A DNA stretch of 50,962 nt from the NCBI GenBank assembly GCA_025935755.1, contig JAICUQ010000006.1:1-50962 (forward strand). The letters are read 5' to 3'. This document shows, piece by piece, positions 3,998 to 48,889 of the stretch. Position 1 is the first letter of the stretch, and each line of letters opens with the position of its first letter. Position numbers and translations under genes: made by a program. The notes beneath the pieces were generated by a model that saw only the letters and a program-made list of their open reading frames with translations, was not told where the DNA came from and did not search any database. Origin of the DNA: Chthoniobacterales bacterium. GTDB taxonomy: Bacteria; Verrucomicrobiota; Verrucomicrobiia; Chthoniobacterales; UBA10450.

Positions 3998-4028
3998 GTC
4001 ATTCCGAGCGAAATCGAGGAATCTCTGA
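3998..4028. repeat. Half copy of GTCATYCCGAGC palindromic repeat
   Basis: A single arm (GTCATTCCGAGCGAAATCGA followed by GGAATCTCTGA) of the family that occurs complete at 23086-23175, 45501-45614 and inside rnd at 20655-20737. It sits just after the stop of the secreted protein gene. Confidence 0.75.
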
Positions 4029-5274: not shown

Positions 5275-6933
5275 TTAAGAACGCGGACGCGGAGTGGGGC
5301 GAGGTCTGGGCGTTGGTTGGAACCTCGGCGTAGGCGTGGGTCGAGGGGTTGGAGTAGCGGTGGCAGTTGCAGTTGCTGTTGCTGTCGCTGTGGCCGTTGC
5401 AGTTGGTGTCGCGGTAGCAGTTGCCGTCGCGGTTGGGGTCGCGGTTGCCGTTGCTGTTGGACTCGCAGTCGGTGTCGGCGTTGGAGTTCCGCCTGCGAAA
5501 GCGAGCGGGTTCGTGTAAAGATCGAACTGGTGCAAAGTTCCATTCGGATTGGTGCCGTCGCAGTTAGCGTTATCCGCCCATAATGTATAGAGCTTGCCGC
5601 CGAACGCGGACAGCCCAACGTAGTCACCATAATCAATGCCGTTGCCCGAAGCAGTAGCGTTCGAGAACCCGCCGCTCAACCGCCGGTTCGGGGCCCATGT
5701 GGCGCCACCATCGGTGGTGTAGGTACCGTAATATTCAGCGTCGTCATTAGGAATCATGTTCGTCCCGCCTGGACCGGGTACGCCGTTATCATTGCGACAA
5801 TCGTGAAAGCCTACTGCCACGATTCCCGATGTAGAATCGAGAGCGACATAAGGCAGGAACTGACTGTTGGTGGTTGCGTCATCATTCACGCGCACCGCTG
5901 CGCTCCACGTCGTTCCGTCGTCGGTCGATGTGCGCATCATGATGTCGGTGTCATTGTTCTCATTAACGGTTTCATCTGTGTAAACGAGATAAATCCGATC
6001 GTTGAAGGGTCCGCCTGTTGCATCCCAAACCACGCCGGCTTCCGCATCGACTGAGCGTTCGTCCTGAGCTGGAATAAAGTCGAAGCCACCGACGTTGGTT
6101 GACGTGGCCGTTACGCGCGGGCCGAAACCGCCTGGTCCCAAACCGTCAGCGTCGACATTGACATAGATCGTCGCTGGACCCTCTCCGCCAGTCGGGCTCT
6201 GATAGGTTACGATGACTTTGCCGCCGTTCGTGCCGGGTCCGACAGCGATACCGCCGAAGCTGCCGGTCGCGGATGGGATCGCTTGTTGCGCGTTAAATGG
6301 TCCCCACGTACCCAGGCCGGTAACCGGAGCGCCGCGCGCGACCATGCTTCCGCTCTGATTCCAGTCGACCCAAACGCTTCCGTTGCCAACAGCGATTGAG
6401 GGTTGGTCAATGCTACCAGTACCCGCAGTGACTGGCGCACTGAATGTAGCGCCGCCGTCGGTGCTCAGGATGACGTTAATTTGGTTAACGCTGTTGTTGA
6501 TGTAAACCAGGAACAAGTTGCCGAACGAATCCCACGCTGCCTGACCGTCGCAGCACGCCACACCAGTGGCGACGGTGCCGCGTGTCCAGGTCGTGCCGCC
6601 GTCTGTAGAATACGCGCGGAAAATACTGGCTGAGCTGGGGTTGTTCGAGGTAGCTACGATGCGGTTTGGGTTCGTCGGGTCGACGTTCATGAAACTCTCA
6701 GCCTGGTTACCGGCCGTGGCGCTGGCATTCACAACCGGCTCCAGGCAGGTCAGCGGCCTGAAAAGTTCGAATCGTTGCGGTGCGCGCTCCGGGGGCTTTA
6801 TGCATTTACGTGTACCGTCGGGCACTTCGACGTGCTTTCTTGGAACTACTACCTGCGCGTGCAGCATCGGTGTGGAGGGCGCGAGCAACCCGAGAACGGC
6901 GGCAAGCATGGTCAGGTAGAAGCGTGTGTTCAT
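5275..6933 (-). CDS. Secreted Asp-box/BNR (sialidase-fold) protein with Thr-Pro/Thr-Ala low-complexity tail
   Basis: 552 residues with a signal peptide (cleaved near MLHAQ). The body is a beta-propeller of Asp-box type: repeats such as YSTDGGTTWTRG, LSTDGGATFSAP, TSTDDGTTWSAA and YTTDGGATWAPN. No catalytic set of a true sialidase is obvious. The last about 80 residues are pure low complexity: PTPTPTASPTA, then Thr-Ala dipeptides, then Arg-Pro-rich PTPRPRPTPRPRS, typical of a wall-spanning or surface linker, yet nothing follows it. The dipeptide run is a 6-nt DNA repeat (5340-5500) and leaves all frames open. Function unknown; probably extracellular. Confidence 0.85.
   Translation of the reverse strand: MNTRFYLTMLAAVLGLLAPSTPMLHAQVVVPRKHVEVPDGTRKCIKPPERAPQRFELFRPLTCLEPVVNASATAGNQAESFMNVDPTNPNRIVATSNNPSSASIFRAYSTDGGTTWTRGTVATGVACCDGQAAWDSFGNLFLVYINNSVNQINVILSTDGGATFSAPVTAGTGSIDQPSIAVGNGSVWVDWNQSGSMVARGAPVTGLGTWGPFNAQQAIPSATGSFGGIAVGPGTNGGKVIVTYQSPTGGEGPATIYVNVDADGLGPGGFGPRVTATSTNVGGFDFIPAQDERSVDAEAGVVWDATGGPFNDRIYLVYTDETVNENNDTDIMMRTSTDDGTTWSAAVRVNDDATTNSQFLPYVALDSTSGIVAVGFHDCRNDNGVPGPGGTNMIPNDDAEYYGTYTTDGGATWAPNRRLSGGFSNATASGNGIDYGDYVGLSAFGGKLYTLWADNANCDGTNPNGTLHQFDLYTNPLAFAGGTPTPTPTASPTATATATPTATATATATPTATATATATATATATATPTPRPTPTPRFQPTPRPRPTPRPRS
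5340..5500. repeat. Hexanucleotide coding repeat (Thr-Ala dipeptides)
   Basis: Degenerate GCNGTT/GCNGTC hexamers on the + strand encode the Thr-Ala tail of the minus-strand Asp-box protein. Period of 6 keeps the reading frame under unit gain or loss. Confidence 0.85.
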
Positions 6934-18493: not shown

Positions 18494-19105
18494 ATGCCTG
18501 CAATTGGAATCACTGGCGGAATTTCCACGGGTAAAAGCACTTTCGTCGATTGCCTTCGCGAGCTTCTGCCGAACGCTACGTTTTTCGACGCAGACGAGGC
18601 GGCTCATGCGCTCTTGAATGTGGCGCACGTGCAAAAGGAAATTCGGAGTGAATTTGGCACAAAAGTGTTTTCACCCAGAGGAGACTTGAATCGAAGCAAG
18701 CTTCGAGCAATAGTATTCGCCGACGCGACCAGAAAACGCGCGCTGGAGCGGATCCTCCATCCGCGCATTCGCCGCCAATGGCGGACAGAGGCGAAAAGCC
18801 ATCGCAATTCCCCCAAATTTTTCTTTGCTGATATTCCACTTCTTTATGAGACCGGCGGTGAAAGCTTATGCGACAAAGTGGTTGTACTGGCCTCTTCGCT
18901 GAAGGTGCAACTCGCGCGTTTACGAAAGCGCATGTCGATAAAAAACGCCGAAGCCAGACAAATGATTAACTCGCAAATGCCACTCGAAGAAAAAATCAGA
19001 CGTGCGGACCACGTGGTTTGGAACAATGGGAGTCGAAGCGCGCTCATGGAGCAGGCGCAGTTGCTGGTTGCATCGTGGCAGGGACAAACATGGACGAAAA
19101 AGTAG
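18494..19105 (+). CDS. coaE: Dephospho-CoA kinase
   Basis: Phosphorylates dephospho-CoA in the last step of coenzyme A synthesis. 203 residues, normal length. P-loop GITGGISTGKS at residues 5-15; DADEAAHALL follows; the lid region carries HPRIRRQW; FADIPLLYETGGE is the CoaE signature. The 3' end overlaps the start of rho by 16 bp, so the genes form an operon. Confidence 0.95.
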   Translation: MPAIGITGGISTGKSTFVDCLRELLPNATFFDADEAAHALLNVAHVQKEIRSEFGTKVFSPRGDLNRSKLRAIVFADATRKRALERILHPRIRRQWRTEAKSHRNSPKFFFADIPLLYETGGESLCDKVVVLASSLKVQLARLRKRMSIKNAEARQMINSQMPLEEKIRRADHVVWNNGSRSALMEQAQLLVASWQGQTWTKK

Positions 19106-20478
19106 AGATACTGAGCTCAGAGGCGGAGATTGCGGCAGAAGGCGAAGGTGCGGCAGATACGGCTGCCACTCCACCGGAGAAGGAGATGCAAACGCCGGGG
19201 TCAACGCCCGCGGCTACGCTGCGCGCGCTTGACCTGAACGAGCTGCAGGATTTTTCGGAGAAAAAGCTGAGAGCTCTCGCGCGGGATTTAGATCTGCATC
19301 TACACCCCGCTCGCTCCAGGCATCAACACATTCTCGATATTGTGCGTGCGGCGGCAGGCGGTGGCGCAATCGTTTCCGCAGAAGGATTTCTCGATCAGGT
19401 GAGCGATTCGTTCGCAATGCTGCGCTGGCCGAAGTTAAATTTTCTGCCCGTTCCCGAGGATGTGGCCGTTCCGCGCAGTCTCATTGAACAATACGATCTG
19501 CGGCCCGGGCAAAAAGTTAAAGGCACGATACGCTTGCCGGTCCAACGCGAAAAATTCCTGTCGCTCGACAAAGTGACAAGCGTGGAGAATCAACCGGTCG
19601 AAGAATGGAAACAATGTACCGCGTTCGATAAGCTAACTCCGCAGTTTCCGCAGGGTAGAATCATCCTGGAGAATCCAAGCACCAGTTCGGTTTGCGCACG
19701 CGCAGTGGATTTGCTAACGCCACTCGGCCGCGGACAGCGCGGTCTCATCGTTGCGCCGCCGCGCGTCGGCAAAACCATCTTGCTAAAAGAGATTGCGAAG
19801 GCGATCCGCGCAAATTATCCGGAGATCGTTCTTATCCTGCTGTTGGTAGACGAGCGACCGGAAGAAGTCACCGATTTGCAGCGGGAAATCGACTGCGAGA
19901 TTTACCATTCAAACTTCGACGAAAGCGTGCAGCGCCATGTGCAAGTGGCGGAGATGGTGCTCGAGCGTGCGAAACGTCTGGTGGAAATGAAACACGATGT
20001 GGTGTTGTTGCTCGACAGCCTGACGCGGCTTTCACGCGGCTACAATAATTTGGAGCCGGGCAAAGGCCGTATCATGTCCGGCGGTGTCGAAGCGAAGGCG
20101 TTGATCAAGCCGAAGAAGTTTTTTGGGTCGGCGCGCAATGCCGAAGAAGGCGGGAGCCTGACTGTGCTGGCCACTGCGTTGACTGAGACTGGCAGCCGGA
20201 TGGACGAACTGATCTTCGAGGAGTTCAAGGGCACCGGAAACATGGAATTGCATCTCGATCGTGGGCTGCAGGAAAAGAGGATTTATCCGGCGATTCATCC
20301 GATGCTTTCGGCTACCAGACGCGAGGAATTACTTTATCATCCAGAGGAATGGGACCGGGTGCTGATGCTGCGCAAGACGATGGGCGCGTTGCCGCCGCTC
20401 GAATCGATGGAAAAACTCATCGATAATCTGCACGCGACCAAAACCAATGCCGAACTACTGTTGAGCGGATTGCGGTGA
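19090..20478 (+). CDS. rho: Transcription termination factor Rho
   Basis: RNA-dependent ATPase that ends transcripts. 462 residues from the ATG at 19090 (MDEKVEIL), inside the end of coaE; an ORF start at 19018 would overlap coaE by 88 bp and looks less likely. An acidic, Ala/Pro-rich N-terminus precedes the Rho N domain ([11 protein letters not shown]), the RNA-binding fold (residues about 95-170), then Walker A APPRVGKT at 222-229, [28 protein letters not shown] and [16 protein letters not shown]. The Q-loop segment reads [16 protein letters not shown]. Its stop overlaps the start of rnd. Confidence 0.97.
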
Positions 20479-21665
20479 GGGAGATGGTGCTCGCAAGATC
20501 TGCTTCACACGATGTGATCGCGTCGGAGCAGCAGTTGGCCGATTTGATCCGGCAAATCGATGCAGCTGATCGCATAGCGCTCGATACCGAGGCAGACAGC
20601 CTGCATTCTTACCGGGAAAAACTTTGTCTGCTCCAGATCAGCGCGCCAGCAGGCGTCATCCTGAGCAACGTCGAAGGATCCCGTGGAACTGCCTCGAAGG
20701 TAACGCTGCGGGATTCCTCGACTTCGCTCGGAATGACTGTGGACTCAGTCGGCGACTTTATCGTTGATCCGTTGAGCAATCTCGATCTCGAGCCGCTGCG
20801 CTGCGCATTGGAATCGAGAGAAATCGTTTTGCATGCTGCCGATTACGATCTGCGAATGCTGCGGCGCGGCCTGAATTTCAAGGCAAGCAAAATTTTCGAT
20901 ACTGTCATTGCGGCGCGATTACTCGGGATCCGCGAATTCAGTCTCGGTGCGCTGGTGAAGCGCTTCTTCGATGTGGAGCTCCACAAACATTCCCAAAAGG
21001 CCAACTGGGCGTTGCGACCATTGCCGCCGAGGATGCTGAAATATGCACTCGACGATGTGCATTATTTGCTGGCGCTTGCCGCAAGATTGGAGCACGAACT
21101 GGAACGAGTTGAACGCGTCGATTGGTTTCGACAATCCTGCGCGCGCGCCATCGAGTCAGCCTCGGCCGCCCGCGAACGGACGGAAGATGAAAATTGGCGT
21201 ATCGCTGGAGTTGGCGCGCTCGATCCGAAGACTGCAGCAGTGCTTCGCGCGCTCTGGCAATGGCGGGAGACAGAAGCGGAATTAGCGGATCGACCTCCAT
21301 TTCATATTTTACACAACCGCGAGCTCCTGGAGGCGGCGGGAAATTTCGCGTCAGGCCACGTCCCTGATTACAAACAGTTCTCCGCGCGCCGGCGCCGGAC
21401 GTTCCGCGAAGCGGCGGAGATGGCTTTGCAATCGCCGCAATCCGACTGGCCGGTGATGCGCCGTCGTTCTGGTATTCGGCCGACACCCGAGATGCGCCAG
21501 CGTGCGGATGAGTTGCGCGAACGGCGAGATAAAGCGGCTGTGCAGCTTGGCTTGGAAGCATCTTTCATTGCATCTCGCGGCTCACTCGAAGCGATCGCAG
21601 CTGATCCCGCGCGCGCAACATCGTTACTGGTGCCGTGGCAACGTGAGTTAATCAGGATCGATTAA
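20475..21665 (+). CDS. rnd: Ribonuclease D with in-frame repeat insertion
   Basis: 3'-5' exoribonuclease for tRNA maturation. 396 residues. GTG start whose GTGA overlaps rho's stop; an ATG lies 9 bp on. DEDD exonuclease motifs: ALDTEADSLHSY (Asp37, Glu39), LHAADYDLRMLRR and YALDDVHYLLALA. HRDC-type helical domain follows (ALWQWRETEAELADRPPFHI). Residues 61-88 (VILSNVEGSRGTA to STSLGMT) are the translation of a dispersed palindromic repeat and sit in the loop between LLQISAPAG and DFIVDPL, where other RNase D proteins have a short turn. The frame is kept and the catalytic residues are intact, so the protein may still work. Confidence 0.92.
   Translation: MREMVLARSASHDVIASEQQLADLIRQIDAADRIALDTEADSLHSYREKLCLLQISAPAGVILSNVEGSRGTASKVTLRDSSTSLGMTVDSVGDFIVDPLSNLDLEPLRCALESREIVLHAADYDLRMLRRGLNFKASKIFDTVIAARLLGIREFSLGALVKRFFDVELHKHSQKANWALRPLPPRMLKYALDDVHYLLALAARLEHELERVERVDWFRQSCARAIESASAARERTEDENWRIAGVGALDPKTAAVLRALWQWRETEAELADRPPFHILHNRELLEAAGNFASGHVPDYKQFSARRRRTFREAAEMALQSPQSDWPVMRRRSGIRPTPEMRQRADELRERRDKAAVQLGLEASFIASRGSLEAIAADPARATSLLVPWQRELIRID
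20655..20737. repeat. GTCATCCTGAGC palindromic repeat inside rnd
   Basis: 83-bp element with arms GTCATCCTGAGCAACGTCGA and TCGACTTCGCTCGGAATGAC, the inverted-repeat plan of the intergenic copies at 23086-23175 and 45501-45614. Here it adds 28 codons without a stop. Confidence 0.88.
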
Positions 21666-21763: not shown

Positions 21764-22486
21764 TTATGGAATGATGAGAGTTTGACCGACGGTAAGATCT
21801 TTTGGATCACGGACGCTTTTCTTGTTCGCTTCAAGGATGGCCTTCCAACGTTTCGACGATTTATAAAACTTTCGCGAAATCGAGAAGAGTGTGTCACCCG
21901 ATTGCACGACGTAAGTTTGGCCTCCCTTTTTTAATCCAGGTTTTTTGGCGTTACTCGCTTCCAATTTCTCCAACGCCGTTCGTGATACCGCTCGCTCTTC
22001 CAGTTGTTTGTGCAGCGCCAAATTTTCGTTGCGTAACCGCGCCGCTTCCGCCCGCGTGATAACAGAATCGCCCGACAACGCTGTCAGTGCAGCGATCTCG
22101 TCGCGCTTGATTGAATCCTTTACGTCTTTGGCGTGTGAGCCGTTTGGAGTTAGCGCGAGATAGCGTTTGAAGTGATGCAGCGCGCTGACAGGATCGTTGA
22201 GTTTGTCATCGTAGAGCAAAGCGAGTTTGTAGTGCACCTCGGCCGCGCGTGGGCTGTCGTCCAGAGCAGCTTCATAAAGGTTTACCGCGCGTTCGAAGTC
22301 GCCCTGCACGGATTTCGTGTCGGCATCCTGCATCAGTTGGGCGTAACGCGAATCGCCAAAACGGTCGCACCCGGTTAATCCGCAGACAGTAATCAGGAAG
22401 AGCTGAGTCCAGCCCACAACCGCATTTACGGACCACAGCGAAAAAGAATGGCAGCAGCGAGGCTGAGAGTTGTCAGTGCGGCGCAT
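21764..22486 (-). CDS. Lipoprotein with TPR and C-terminal LysM domain
   Basis: 240 residues from the ATG at 22486 (open to 22540). A hydrophobic segment ends in the lipobox LTGC, so it should be lipid-anchored. TPR-like helices follow (YAQLMQDADTKSVQGDFERA, HYKLALLYDDKLNDPVSALH), then a coiled-coil-prone stretch (RAEAARLRNENLALHKQLEE) and a LysM module at the end (YVVQSGDTLFSISRKFYKSS, DLTVGQTLIIP) that binds peptidoglycan. Its 5' end overlaps that of the divergent next gene by about 11 bp if both starts are right. Likely an envelope scaffold. Confidence 0.85.
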   Translation of the reverse strand: MRRTDNSQPRCCHSFSLWSVNAVVGWTQLFLITVCGLTGCDRFGDSRYAQLMQDADTKSVQGDFERAVNLYEAALDDSPRAAEVHYKLALLYDDKLNDPVSALHHFKRYLALTPNGSHAKDVKDSIKRDEIAALTALSGDSVITRAEAARLRNENLALHKQLEERAVSRTALEKLEASNAKKPGLKKGGQTYVVQSGDTLFSISRKFYKSSKRWKAILEANKKSVRDPKDLTVGQTLIIP

Positions 22487-23072
22487 TCTCGGCAATTTGC
22501 TTGTTGTGAGCACGCGTGCACTTTTTTTCTCAGTCGGCACTACACTGCTCTTCGCAGCGATCGCTTGCCATGGGGCGCTTTCAACCGGCTCCGACTATTC
22601 GATTAGCTTAGTCGATCTCGATGGCAACAAACTTTCGACGGCTGACGGACACGTCACCGTCGTCGTATTGGCAACCCCTGCTGCCCGCGAACAGGCCCGA
22701 ACTGTGGGCGACCATGTTCCGGATTTTTGTCTCGGCAATCCGACTTACAGGATGATTACCATCATTCATTTCACCGGCAGACACATGGCAATCGGGCGCC
22801 GACTGGCGACGGCGTTCGTTCGGCATCGCGTCAAGGAGGCAGCACAACGGCTTCAGGCGCGGTACGATGCACTGAAAATCTCGCGCGATGCCAAAAGCGA
22901 TATATTTGTCGTCACTGATTTTGACGGGACAATCGCTTCGCAGTTCGGTCAGGTTGCGGGAGCTGCGGAGTTTGGCGTGTTTGTGTTTGGCCCCAAAGGA
23001 GAATTGTTAGCGCAATGGCATAGCGTGCCCTCTATGGACGAACTCGCTGCGGTTCTGAAAAAATCCGATTAA
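22476..23072 (+). CDS. Secreted thioredoxin-fold protein lacking CxxC
   Basis: About 198 residues from GTG at 22476 (TTG at 22470 also possible; no ATG at the front). Signal peptide LFFSVGTTLLFAAIACHGA. The rest resembles the AhpC/TlpA thioredoxin fold: YSISLVDLDGNKLSTADGHV, VTVVVLATPAAREQ, IFVVTDFDGTIASQFG and FGVFVFGPKGELLAQWHSVP. The redox CxxC is missing; the nearest Cys is DFCLGNPTYR, so it is unlikely to be a disulfide reductase. Function unknown. Confidence 0.7.
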   Translation: MRRILGNLLVVSTRALFFSVGTTLLFAAIACHGALSTGSDYSISLVDLDGNKLSTADGHVTVVVLATPAAREQARTVGDHVPDFCLGNPTYRMITIIHFTGRHMAIGRRLATAFVRHRVKEAAQRLQARYDALKISRDAKSDIFVVTDFDGTIASQFGQVAGAAEFGVFVFGPKGELLAQWHSVPSMDELAAVLKKSD

Positions 23073-23085
23073 CGATCGTCGGCCG

Positions 23086-23175
23086 GTCATCCCGAGCGAA
23101 GCTGAGGGGTCCCGCTGCGCAGCGTCCGGTAATCCCGCGGGTTCCTCGACTCCGCTGCGCTTCGCTCGGAATGAC
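23086..23175. repeat. GTCATCCCGAGC palindromic repeat between convergent genes
   Basis: Left arm GTCATCCCGAGCGAAGCTGA, right arm CGCTTCGCTCGGAATGAC, with an inner palindrome GCTGCGCAGC. Located between two convergent genes, where the hairpin could end transcripts from both sides. Confidence 0.85.
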
Positions 23176-23206: not shown

Positions 23207-24376
23207 TCAGTATTTCGGTACAGTTGGATCGATGGCGTCCGACCAGGCCTCGATTCCTCCTTCCAGATTGTACACATTTGCGAAGCCCCGGTGCTTGAGC
23301 AGTCGTACGGCTTCGGCACTGCGGCGACCGCTATGACAATGAACGATGACGGTCTGCCCGCGGCGCAACTCGCTGGCGCGGTCAGCGATTTCTCCGAGCG
23401 GGATCAACTTCGCGCCTTCGATTCGTGCGATCTCGAATTCGAATGGCTCACGCACATCGATCAGGTCGAACGCTTCACGCGCATCCATCTTTTCTTTCAA
23501 TTCTTGCACCGATATTCCAGGGACGCCCGCTTCGTCGGGAGCGCCGCAAAATTGATCGTAGTCAATCGGCGCAAAGATTGTTGGGTTTTCGCCGCAAACA
23601 GGACAGCGCGGATCGCGCCGCAGCTTTAGCTCACGAAATGCGACCTTCAGCGCATCGAAATGCAGCAGGCGTCCAAGCAATGATTCGCCGACGCCCACGA
23701 TCAGTTTGATCGTCTCGATCGCCTGAAGCATGCCAATAATGCCGGGCAAAACACCGAGCACACCGGCTTGTGCACAGTTCGGAACCGACTCCGGCGGCGG
23801 TGGCTCCGGAAAAAGACAACGATAACATGGCCCACCTAAATGCGGCGCGAATACAGTGGTTTGGCCTTCGAATCTGAATACGGAGCCGTAGACATTCGGC
23901 TTCTGCGCAAACACACAAACGTCGTTTGAGAGATAACGTGTCGCGAAATTATCCGAACCATCTACGATCACGTCGTAATCAGATACAATTCGCTCCGCGT
24001 TTTCGCTGGACAATCGACACTCGTGCAACTCGATGTTGATGTCCGGGTTGATGTCGCGCAGCCGGTCACGCGCCGATTCGAGTTTACTGCGGCCAATATC
24101 CTTTGTTCCGTGAAGAATCTGCCGTTGCAGATTGGTGAGATCGACACGATCGAAATCAACGAGGCCAAGTCTTCCCACGCCTGCTGCTGCCAGATAAAGG
24201 GCAGCAGGGGAACCGAGGCCGCCCGCGCCGATACATAAAACGCGCGACGCCTTCAGCCGTTTCTGTCCGTCGGCGGTCACTTCGGGCATAATGAGATGTC
24301 GCGAATAGCGTTGCAGTTCCGCTTTCGTTAGGCCTGCTGCGGAAATTCTTTCGTCGCCGATGACGCTCTGATGCAT
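23207..24376 (-). CDS. moeB: MoeB/ThiF-type adenylyltransferase with C-terminal rhodanese domain (MoeZ-like)
   Basis: Adenylates the C-terminal Gly of a small sulfur-carrier protein (MoaD or ThiS type) and passes sulfur to it. 389 residues: E1-like domain with GAGGLGSPAALYLAAAGVG, VDFDRVDLTNLQRQ and SDNFATRYLSNDVC, zinc ligands CYRCLF and CPVCG, and a rhodanese domain from about residue 285 with the active-site Cys in VIVHCHSGRRSAEAV. The fused form makes a separate sulfurtransferase unnecessary. No partner carrier gene is in the window. Confidence 0.93.
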   Translation of the reverse strand: MHQSVIGDERISAAGLTKAELQRYSRHLIMPEVTADGQKRLKASRVLCIGAGGLGSPAALYLAAAGVGRLGLVDFDRVDLTNLQRQILHGTKDIGRSKLESARDRLRDINPDINIELHECRLSSENAERIVSDYDVIVDGSDNFATRYLSNDVCVFAQKPNVYGSVFRFEGQTTVFAPHLGGPCYRCLFPEPPPPESVPNCAQAGVLGVLPGIIGMLQAIETIKLIVGVGESLLGRLLHFDALKVAFRELKLRRDPRCPVCGENPTIFAPIDYDQFCGAPDEAGVPGISVQELKEKMDAREAFDLIDVREPFEFEIARIEGAKLIPLGEIADRASELRRGQTVIVHCHSGRRSAEAVRLLKHRGFANVYNLEGGIEAWSDAIDPTVPKY

Positions 24377-45500: not shown

Positions 45501-45614
45501 GTCATCCTGAGTCGCGAAGGCGACGAAGGATCTCTCGATCGGGAATATATTACAGAACGTAGCTTGCGTGAGGTTCCGCTGTTTCGGGAGGTCCCTCGCT
45601 TCGCTCGGGATGAC
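45501..45614. repeat. GTCATCCTGAG palindromic repeat between glnS and gltX
   Basis: Outer arms GTCATCCTGAGTCGCGAAGG and CGCTTCGCTCGGGATGAC fill the whole 127-bp gap between the convergent glnS and gltX. Complete member of the family found inside rnd. Likely a hairpin at both mRNA ends. Confidence 0.85.
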
Positions 45615-47036: not shown

Positions 47037-48099
47037 AAAAAATCTTCTTGGCTCGGCGCCGCGCGTGTTGATTTCCGGGAAGATTCACTTTTGCAATCGA
47101 ACCCTCAGGATCTACTAACGACCGAACCCGTTCGATGGCATCGAATCCAACGTCCGGAATGTTTTGTGCACGCAACCATTTCAAGACCGCCCGACGCTGA
47201 AGCGCGATTGGCAAAGCGCGTAATTTTTGGACCGACAGACTTCGTGTTGCATATGCAACAAAAAGTTGCTCAAGATTTGGCGATTGGTTCTCAATCCATT
47301 TCTCTTCATCGGCAGCGATGATCGCTGTTCGCCAGATGTTTTGCCGGATGTTGCGGCCGACCGCTTTTTCCAGGTACGGAATCACCCGACGCCGGATACG
47401 GTTTCGGAGCGGAGTGAGATTTTCGTTTGTAACGTCTTCGCGAAATGTCAGCCGGTGCTCGGTCACGTAATCATCGATCTCAGTACGCCAGGCGCCGAGA
47501 AATGGGCGCACGACCGTCAGGTCGATGCGGTTGATGCGCCGTGTGGAAATTTCCTGCATCGCAGAAAGACCAGCGTTGCCGGCGCCCCGAAACAGATTGA
47601 TCAGCAATGTTTCGACCAAGTCGTCTGCGTGATGCGCGACGAAGATTGTTCGGCAGTTTCGGCGCCGTGCGATTTCAGCAAAAAACGCGTAGCGCGCCTC
47701 ACGCGCCGCAGTTTCGATCGACATCTTCTTTTTCTTCGTGAGCTCAAGGATGTTGGCAGAACCGAGTTCGAATTCGATCCCGCCAGCCTTTGTAACGCGA
47801 GCGGATCGATTGTCCGCCCGTGCGGCTGGCTGGCGGAGCGGCTGCCCTACAGCTTTCCCGTTGTAGCGCTCGGCAAGTCTCTCAACAAACCGCGCATCGG
47901 CATCGCTCGATCGTCCGCGTAACCGGTGATTTAGATGGCAAACGATCAGGCGCTTGTAACCGCGGCTGATCAGCCAGTGAAGTAGCGCGACGGAATCGCG
48001 CCCGCCAGATACGCCGACCAAGTAGCGTGCACCCGGCGGAAAAGCGCGGGTTAAGCCCGGTTTCAATTCAAGCGAAAGCACGGTGAAAGAGTAGCGCAT
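47029..48099 (-). CDS. tilS: tRNA(Ile)-lysidine synthetase
   Basis: Modifies C34 of tRNA-Ile(CAU) with lysine. 356 residues from ATG 48099; the ORF is open to 48141, and a GTG at 48081 gives VLSLELKPGLTRAF. PP-loop ATPase motif GVSGGRDSVALLHWL, then CHLNHRLRGRSSDADARFVE, IFVAHHADDLVETLLINLFR and GNAGLSAMQE. C-terminal domain short. The first codons (ATGCGCTAC) fall inside a palindromic repeat, so the true start may be the GTG. Its first about 200 bp are duplicated upstream. Confidence 0.93.
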   Translation of the reverse strand: MRYSFTVLSLELKPGLTRAFPPGARYLVGVSGGRDSVALLHWLISRGYKRLIVCHLNHRLRGRSSDADARFVERLAERYNGKAVGQPLRQPAARADNRSARVTKAGGIEFELGSANILELTKKKKMSIETAAREARYAFFAEIARRRNCRTIFVAHHADDLVETLLINLFRGAGNAGLSAMQEISTRRINRIDLTVVRPFLGAWRTEIDDYVTEHRLTFREDVTNENLTPLRNRIRRRVIPYLEKAVGRNIRQNIWRTAIIAADEEKWIENQSPNLEQLFVAYATRSLSVQKLRALPIALQRRAVLKWLRAQNIPDVGFDAIERVRSLVDPEGSIAKVNLPGNQHARRRAKKIFLE

Positions 48100-48470
48100 G
48101 CGTTCCGCTTGCGAACCGTAAAACGCGCAAGCCGGAGGCATGCGCTACCTTTTGACTCAACTCGATCGTGCGCGTAACCGGTGATTTAGATAGCAAACGA
48201 TCAGGTGCTTGTAACCGCGGCTGATCAGCCAATGAAGTAGCGCGACGGAATCGCGCCCGCCAGAGACGCCGATCAAATAGAGTGCATCCGGGGGAAAAGC
48301 GCGGGTTAAGCCCGGTTTCAATTCAAGCGAAAGCACGGTGAAAGAGTAGCGCATGCGTCCCGCTTGCGAACCCTAAAACGCGCAAGCCGGAGGCATGCGC
48401 TACCTTTTGACTCACTCGATCGTCCGCGTAACCGGTGATTTAGATGACAAACGATCAGGCGCTTGTCACC
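47906..48470. repeat. Tandem repeat of a 255-bp unit (two full, one partial)
   Basis: Unit 1 47906-48160, unit 2 48161-48414 and a 56-bp start of unit 3 at 48415-48470, each beginning CTCGATCGTSCGCGTAACCG. Each unit holds the tilS start region plus the palindrome GTAGCGCATGCGTYCCGCTT ... AAGCCGGAGGCATGCGCTAC. Confidence 0.9.
48157..48354 (-). pseudogene. Truncated duplicate of the tilS 5' end
   Basis: 65-codon ORF, about 90% identical to the first 65 residues of the TilS entry (GVSGGRDSVALLHWLISRGY kept, PPGARYLVG changed to PPDALYLIG). It stops where the duplicated unit ends. The P-loop is intact but the rest of the enzyme is missing, so it should have no activity. Confidence 0.9.
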
Positions 48471-48889
48471 GAAGTTGCTGGTATACGTGAATCACGTATA
48501 GCCACGCACCGCGAACCCGGAGTGAATACTTCCGATCTCGTCAATCGCCCGTGGTGCGACGCGAGTTCTTCGCCATGAGCAACGCTTGGTGTGTGGGCGA
48601 AACGGCGTGGGAAAATCCCGTCCTTCGCACCCCAATGCAAAACTTCCCGTGCTCATTCTCCAGAAGAACCATTTCGTACGCCGTTTTCTGTAGCCTTCTC
48701 AAAGAATGACGACTTCCCGGTCGTCACTCCTCGGTATATGAGCGACGAAACGTCTCTCGCCGGAGCAGGCGATAAAATAATCTGGAATCCAGGAATCCAT
48801 GAATTCATTATCCCGTCCGGTATGACCGATCGATATGCGCGCGACGTTGTTCCAATACAGACATCAAACATCGAACCTCGAAACACTTT
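48415..48889. other. Gap between tilS duplication and terB
   Basis: Contains the end of the tandem repeat and, at 48481-48500, a copy of the palindrome TATACGTGAATCACGTATA. The rest (48500-48889) holds no gene I can support; a weak + strand open frame of 100 codons lacks family signals. Confidence 0.55.
48481..48499. repeat. 19-bp palindrome TATACGTGAATCACGTATA, copy 1
   Basis: Perfect dyad around a central A/T base. Further copies at 49602-49618 (one end shortened) and 50033-50051. Confidence 0.85.

Follow-up and report, generated by a model that had tools for sequence, protein, structure and literature searches.

A dispersed palindromic repeat lies in frame in a loop of RNase D in a Chthoniobacterales bacterium

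In the 50,962-nt stretch of DNA analysed here (the window), the RNase D gene of a Chthoniobacterales bacterium carries a palindromic element in frame. The element belongs to a dispersed repeat family, here called the GTCAT family, which is absent from this position in most orthologs read, and the same protein loop holds units of a second, unrelated family in relatives. We consider it highly probable that the element is a palindromic repeat, mobile now or in the past, that is built as an inverted REP-like dimer and is tolerated, and putatively translated, in a β-hairpin turn of RNase D. The window is one contig (C56) of a draft genome (G000) of 3.67 Mb in 270 contigs, 90% complete; the coordinates of its features are collected in Table 1.

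Table 1 Features of the window that bear on the palindromic element (positions are those of the window)
Feature	Position	Strand	Remarks
rho	19018-20478	+	directly upstream of RNase D
RNase D ORF, 396 aa	20475-21665	+	GTG start overlaps rho stop codon
Palindromic element, 83 nt	20655-20737		read as RNase D residues 61-88
Left REP-like monomer	20655-20682	+	GTC, internal stem ATCCT/AGGAT, CCC tail; stem covariation, 64 distinct arms
Spacer between the two monomers	20683-20709		
Right REP-like monomer, inverted	20710-20737	-	ATTCC/GGAAT stem
Further full copy	23086-23175		between 3′ ends of ORFs 22470-23072 (+) and 23207-24376 (-)
Further longer copy	45501-45614		
Single family arm	3998-4019	+	

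The initial annotation described an 83-bp element that encodes 28 residues in frame, from VILSNVEGSR to STSLGMT. The coordinates and the translation confirm this, as the element starts on a codon boundary of the ORF and fills 28 codons. Its 5′ end reads GTCATCCTGAGC and its 3′ end GGAATGAC, and it folds at -44.9 kcal/mol, compared with a shuffle mean of -23.2 (z -6.97; none of 200 shuffles reaches it). Stem covariation indicates that each arm is a small hairpin, so that the 83-bp palindrome reads as an inverted dimer of a ~28-nt, GTC-tipped, REP-like unit. This analysis used the 80 of 172 arms with canonical spacing (64 distinct), leaving out the other 92. At the two variable stem positions, 98 of 128 cells are Watson-Crick pairs, compared with a mean of 59 and a maximum of 75 in 2,000 shuffles. 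As read here, the arm unit has seven pairs (5 + 2) with a GA bulge and a 6-nt loop. The stem begins with A-T pairs (A4-T25 in 36 and T5-A24 in 39 of the 64 distinct arms), and the tail is CCC in 31 of the 64. The base preceding GTC at the 172 arm ends is T in 75, C in 47, G in 30 and A in 20. Relative to the background (C 0.28, T 0.22), T is enriched and C is at background level; the window copy reads CGTC.

The intergenic copies to which the annotation had likened the insert are real. Two further copies lie in the window (Table 1), and the exact arm occurs 59 times in the genome, whereas a reversed-pattern control gives 0. A longer arm pattern with up to 2 mismatches occurs 122 times (control, 1), and BLAST with the element gives 52 genome matches at E up to 1, a count in which a palindrome may score on both strands. 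Arms of the family are present in all 22 genomes searched, namely G000 and 21 relatives (control, 0), and dispersed copies in G034 and G027 are 84 to 86% identical to the window element. Pairing arms around the listed match places gave 86 pairs, or 84 elements after two with a common 3′ end were removed; copies of which one arm has decayed badly fall outside this set, as do places that were not listed. On average, 2.19 of the six frames of these 84 elements are stop-free, compared with 2.70 in dinucleotide shuffles. Selection of the elements for open frames was rejected, with 200 of 200 dinucleotide shuffles at least as open.

The element is also read in frame elsewhere in the genome, as the annotation had suggested checking. 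Eight of the 84 paired elements, RNase D included, lie in frame in genes with recognisable domains. The seven further copies are found in a LigD-like ligase (between LigD_N and the ligase domain), PheT (between tRNA_bind and B3/4), a FadB-like enzyme (near the C-terminal 3HCDH repeat), two FAD oxidoreductases (inside DAO), UvrC (inside the RNase H domain) and a UvrA-like protein (between the ATPase halves). For three of these, alignment to the best PDB chain, which lacks the insert, marks the place: residues 197 and 232 of PheT align to chain positions 193 and 203, residues 336 and 400 of UvrC align to 78 and 80, and the match of the FadB-like enzyme breaks at 478/514. In 12 genomes of the same genus, the PheT match breaks at around residues 191 to 201 and resumes at around 223 to 240, and GTCAT-family matches lie inside PheT of G014 and G015 and inside UvrC of G014. 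Several other candidate hosts were set aside. In a long ORF at L096, a domain is found on the acyltransferase side alone, and the ORF may be two genes read together. The copy at L109 (1664-1751) precedes the PBP2 domains and probably lies 5′ of the start. ORFs at L005, L083 and L087, together with opposite-strand ORFs of L020 and L109, were judged spurious by eye.

The interrupted gene is the sole RNase D match in the draft genome. Outside the insert the protein matches PF01612 and HRDC, the best solved folds are 3cym and E. coli RNase D 1yt3, and the nearest named record found is from a Verrucomicrobia bacterium MAG (77% identity in RNase D; L156). Residues D37, E39, D125, Y190 and D194, which we take, by E. 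coli RNase D, to be the catalytic DEDD-type residues, are invariant in an alignment of six sequences, and the ORF is open, in line with the claim that the frame and the catalytic motifs survive. An AlphaFold model (6 sequences in the alignment, mean pLDDT 76.6) predicts strands at residues 52-58 and 92-97 on either side of a segment, residues 61-89, with pLDDT below 50, which agrees with the proposed position between two strands.

We then read the same loop in orthologs. Of 98 genomes searched, 92 had an RNase D match, and the best 30 of these 92 loci were read; rho lies directly upstream in 29 of the 30, and the remaining locus ends at a contig edge. Among the 30 orthologs, the loop is bare (12 nt) in 6, carries the GTCAT family in 4, a GTAG-type palindrome in 12 and unassigned inserts in 8. 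The alignment of close relatives proposed in the annotation thus finds the GTCAT insert in just 4 of the 30. These carriers (G000, G015, G001 and G034) belong to one genus, and most same-genus orthologs read hold some insert. Both flanking motifs lie within one open frame in all 30. As the best-scoring loci favour intact genes, eight further loci were fetched, five of them for matches in pieces or with stops. Six are bare and two (G031 and G017) hold other inserts; all eight keep an open frame across the loop, with breaks elsewhere, so that one open frame crosses the loop in 38 of 38 loci in total.

The GTAG-type unit at the loop reads GTAGCCGG..TC..TGA..CCGGC and was called with a weight matrix built from dispersed GTAG units; for each of the 12 loci, none of 2,000 coding windows scores as high. 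The unit is dispersed in 21 of 22 genomes, with 8 matches in G000 and 50 to 90 in five relatives (controls, 0 to 3 per genome). Scored against this matrix, the window element is not of the GTAG family (best score, -11.6). Judged by their sequences, the two units are unrelated, and each is dispersed. The remaining inserts are less readily assigned. Five of ten inserts of 33 to 45 nt score as GTAG units and the rest do not. Inserts of 81 to 84 nt in five genomes of one clade were considered as a third family; two of the five score as degenerate GTAG units and the rest are unassigned. An insert of 147 nt in G028 is the most intact and folds at -90.8 kcal/mol (z -7.8). Five other loop inserts fold at z -0.9 to -2.8 and are thus no longer strong palindromes; the whole G034 insert, in which a further piece of GTCAT-family sequence is nested in frame, folds no better than shuffles (z -0.9). 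In two relatives (G013 and G007; L054 and L056), RNase D carries another in-frame insert eleven residues beyond the first loop, on its downstream side; this second insert is 43 aa long, folds at -58 and -66 kcal/mol (energies without a shuffle control) and matches neither palindrome family.

How often the loop received an insert bears on an alternative in which one ancestral loop insert diverged into all present variants. The prevalence of inserts in the genus is in keeping with such an ancestor, as is the resemblance among the four GTCAT copies, which are more alike than most copies within G000. All four have GGAAC in the spacer, a motif that only 4 of 106 arm orientations show among short G000 copies (counting the RNase D copy); this could also mean common descent of the four. 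Against a single ancestor, the GTAG and GTCAT units are unrelated and dispersed in the genomes, as described above. In a tree of RNase D alone, built with the loop left out, the GTCAT carriers fall in two places, and a single clade of carriers is rejected (AU p 2.9e-6), which points to a probable repeated invasion of the loop. The bases adjoining the G034 insert are nearest to those of G011 and G026, both without a GTCAT insert, and not to those of G000; local exchange is therefore not visible in the flanks, and local recombination was set aside as the source of this insert. Dispersed copies in G034 are about as close to the window element as is the RNase D copy of that genome (87% over 68 bases). 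We regard a single ancestral insert as unlikely.

The fate of the element after insertion was followed by hand alignment with the three other carriers (L039, L040 and L041), from which the insert pN/pS values and base-pair counts derive. Insert pN/pS is 0.16 between G000 and G015 and 0.69 to 1.35 in the other five ortholog pairs, with flanks at 0.19 to 0.28. Synonymous divergence is lower in the insert (0.19 to 0.28) than in the flanks (0.46 to 0.70) in all six pairs, about a quarter to half of the flank value. Between G000 and G015, synonymous changes number 5 of 24 in the insert and 159 of 258 in the flanks (Fisher p 1.4e-4), a pattern that simple neutral decay would not predict.

This reduced synonymous divergence would suit an element that acts at the site as an RNA hairpin, for instance by controlling rho-rnd expression, as would the strong fold (z -7) and the 29 of 32 base pairs kept in G015. 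In G034, 28 pairs are kept. Against such a role, G001 keeps 23 pairs and has nine broken, and none of the 32 pairs shows a compensatory change on both sides in any of the three other carriers. Insert type and size also vary freely among orthologs. Selection for the hairpin within RNase D is thus unsupported, we found nothing in support of a functional link between the hairpin and the job of RNase D, and we hold a role as RNA at this site to be quite improbable.

A selected functional peptide, such as an extra RNA-binding loop, would account for the closest pair, in which 26 of 28 residues are identical (pN 0.034, pS 0.205). This identity is not exceptional, since among 327 overlapping blocks of 28 codons in the flanks, 19 have at least 27 identical residues. 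The pN/pS of the other five pairs argues against such a peptide, as do the low pLDDT of the insert and the other 26 of 30 orthologs, in which the loop has either no insert or an unrelated peptide; we give this explanation very little credence. As a group, the sequences of the four carriers give no sign of a conserved peptide or hairpin. With weak constraint on the peptide, no compensation of pairs and a turn of low pLDDT, the insert looks like a tolerated loop, probably disordered in view of the model.

At 83 nt or 28 aa, the element is, to our knowledge, too short for any known self-splicing intron or intein. That it is cut out of the mRNA or skipped by the ribosome, and so absent from the protein, is scarcely credible: the hairpin is very stable (-44.9 kcal/mol) and bypassing of palindromes in translation is mentioned for a yeast mitochondrion in the available part of one report (PMC6649704), but removal needs no open frame, and all 26 loop inserts of at least 33 nt (24 of the 30 loci and 2 of the 8) keep one.

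We therefore return to the tolerated palindromic repeat as the preferred explanation. A GTC-starting, inverted REP-like dimer would have inserted into the β-hairpin turn of RNase D, probably by transposition in trans. It would have survived because the frame was kept, its reading frame holds no stop and the protein tolerates a change of length at this site. Selection would filter random insertions rather than steer them, and the insert would be translated as part of a working enzyme. Chance insertion and subsequent selection, for frame and for tolerance, account for most of the data.

As for the mobiliser, none of eight Y1_Tnp hits carries element arms as terminal repeats, in a search limited to Y1_Tnp in the draft genome (270 contigs, 90% complete). 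Elements lie within 1.5 kb of three of the eight hits, never as their ends. A RAYT as mobiliser of the GTCAT family was accordingly set aside, a transposase flanked by the repeat being absent among the eight.

The search also revealed Y1 transposase domains (PF01797) in frame in three long ORFs of G000, encoding AlaRS (L075, C263, 1178 aa), RecG (L073, C260, 895 aa) and Sua5 (L074, C18, 571 aa). The matches have E values of 3e-4 to 1e-5, that in AlaRS being just under the Pfam cut-off. They are flanked by inverted repeats of 54 to 56 nt in AlaRS and RecG and by 53-nt direct repeats in Sua5. The AlaRS insert is common to G029 (82% identity over the full length) and G031 (split over two contigs). 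Among the matches listed, AlaRS of the other relatives mostly stops matching at around residue 420 and resumes at around 625, and the transposase stretch also matches other long ORFs. In the window, positions 2211-2468 form a 55-nt inverted repeat, 98% complementary, with 148 nt between the arms and a fold of -184 kcal/mol; its sequence GGGGAGCGCGGGCGCCTCGCCCGC also occurs in the terminal repeat of the transposase in AlaRS, which suggests that the repeat is a MITE of this transposase. Two further repeats of the window are a run with a 12-nt period (5330-5487) and a near-identical 254-nt tandem duplication with a third, partial copy (47903-48471).

A broader reading, which we offer tentatively and consider less likely to hold than to fail, is that housekeeping proteins of this genus regularly receive mobile DNA, which remains translated. 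The RNase D loop would then be a landing pad used repeatedly by unrelated palindromes, in which a resident perhaps draws in a further one, and AlaRS, RecG and Sua5 would be cases in which even a whole Y1 transposase, long terminal repeats included, lies in frame. If this were true, since the elements have fewer open frames than their shuffles, either target choice or an unusual tolerance of the proteins would be a new principle.

In-frame palindromes have already been described in Rickettsia and in Opitutus, so the kind of event is known. The value of the present case is that it shows clearly how unrelated element families can occupy one and the same loop. With two such families in the one loop of sister species, and with bare relatives, a hotspot can be tested directly against one old insert. 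As a caution for annotators, loops of conserved enzymes in this group can be mobile DNA and not functional insertions. Within a partial coverage of the literature, which says little on prior description, we found no report of repeats with these arm sequences or peptides, and for intragenic REPs in Verrucomicrobia a single paper was found (PMC3733652).

The parallel with the Rickettsia palindromic elements (RPEs), drawn in the initial annotation, proved close. The available parts of two papers describe RPEs as in-frame palindromes within Rickettsia genes (PMC3767692, PMC6649704). RPE-4, RPE-6 and RPE-7 resemble the GTCAT family in being dispersed, in frame in genes, marked by an ATGAC motif and present in pheT as a host gene (PMC3767692, PMC3733652, as far as their available text goes), a likeness of described features. 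From the same portions, RPEs are reported in solvent-exposed stretches; the insert in RNase D is a low-confidence turn in our model. At a given locus, the RPE group differs between species, and the accessible text leaves open whether the shared positions of RPE-4, RPE-6 and RPE-7 reflect a hotspot or a common origin (PMC3767692). Unlike the RPEs as described there, the two families in the RNase D loop are unrelated, and two placements of GTCAT carriers are backed by the AU test.

The second comparison is with REP superfamilies, again as the accessible portion of PMC3733652 presents them. GTAG-tagged REPs match the unit in the loop of 12 relatives; the window element lies outside that family. 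CGTC-tagged REPs bear the tag CGTC, in many repeats TGTC or CCTC, and the GTCAT family is like them in its initial A-T pairs and its inverted dimers, and may resemble them in its GTC tip, mostly preceded by T or C. Available passages also describe intragenic members and no dedicated transposase (PMC3733652, Di Nocera 2013), which fits the 0 of 8 Y1_Tnp hits here. In contrast to CGTC-tagged REPs, the GTCAT family has T enriched before GTC with C at background, a CCC tail where theirs is mostly CCA, and 5 + 2 pairs with a bulge and a 6-nt loop where theirs have a stem of 8 to 9 bp and a loop of 4 to 5 (PMC3733652). Given these differences in stem, loop and tail, and a comparison by description only, we call the family CGTC-like and not a member. 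The same portion of PMC3733652 records different REPs at approximately one recB site in two Xanthomonas species, and intragenic GTAG and CGTC REPs, with uvrA among the hosts, in the verrucomicrobial Opitutus terrae and other bacteria.
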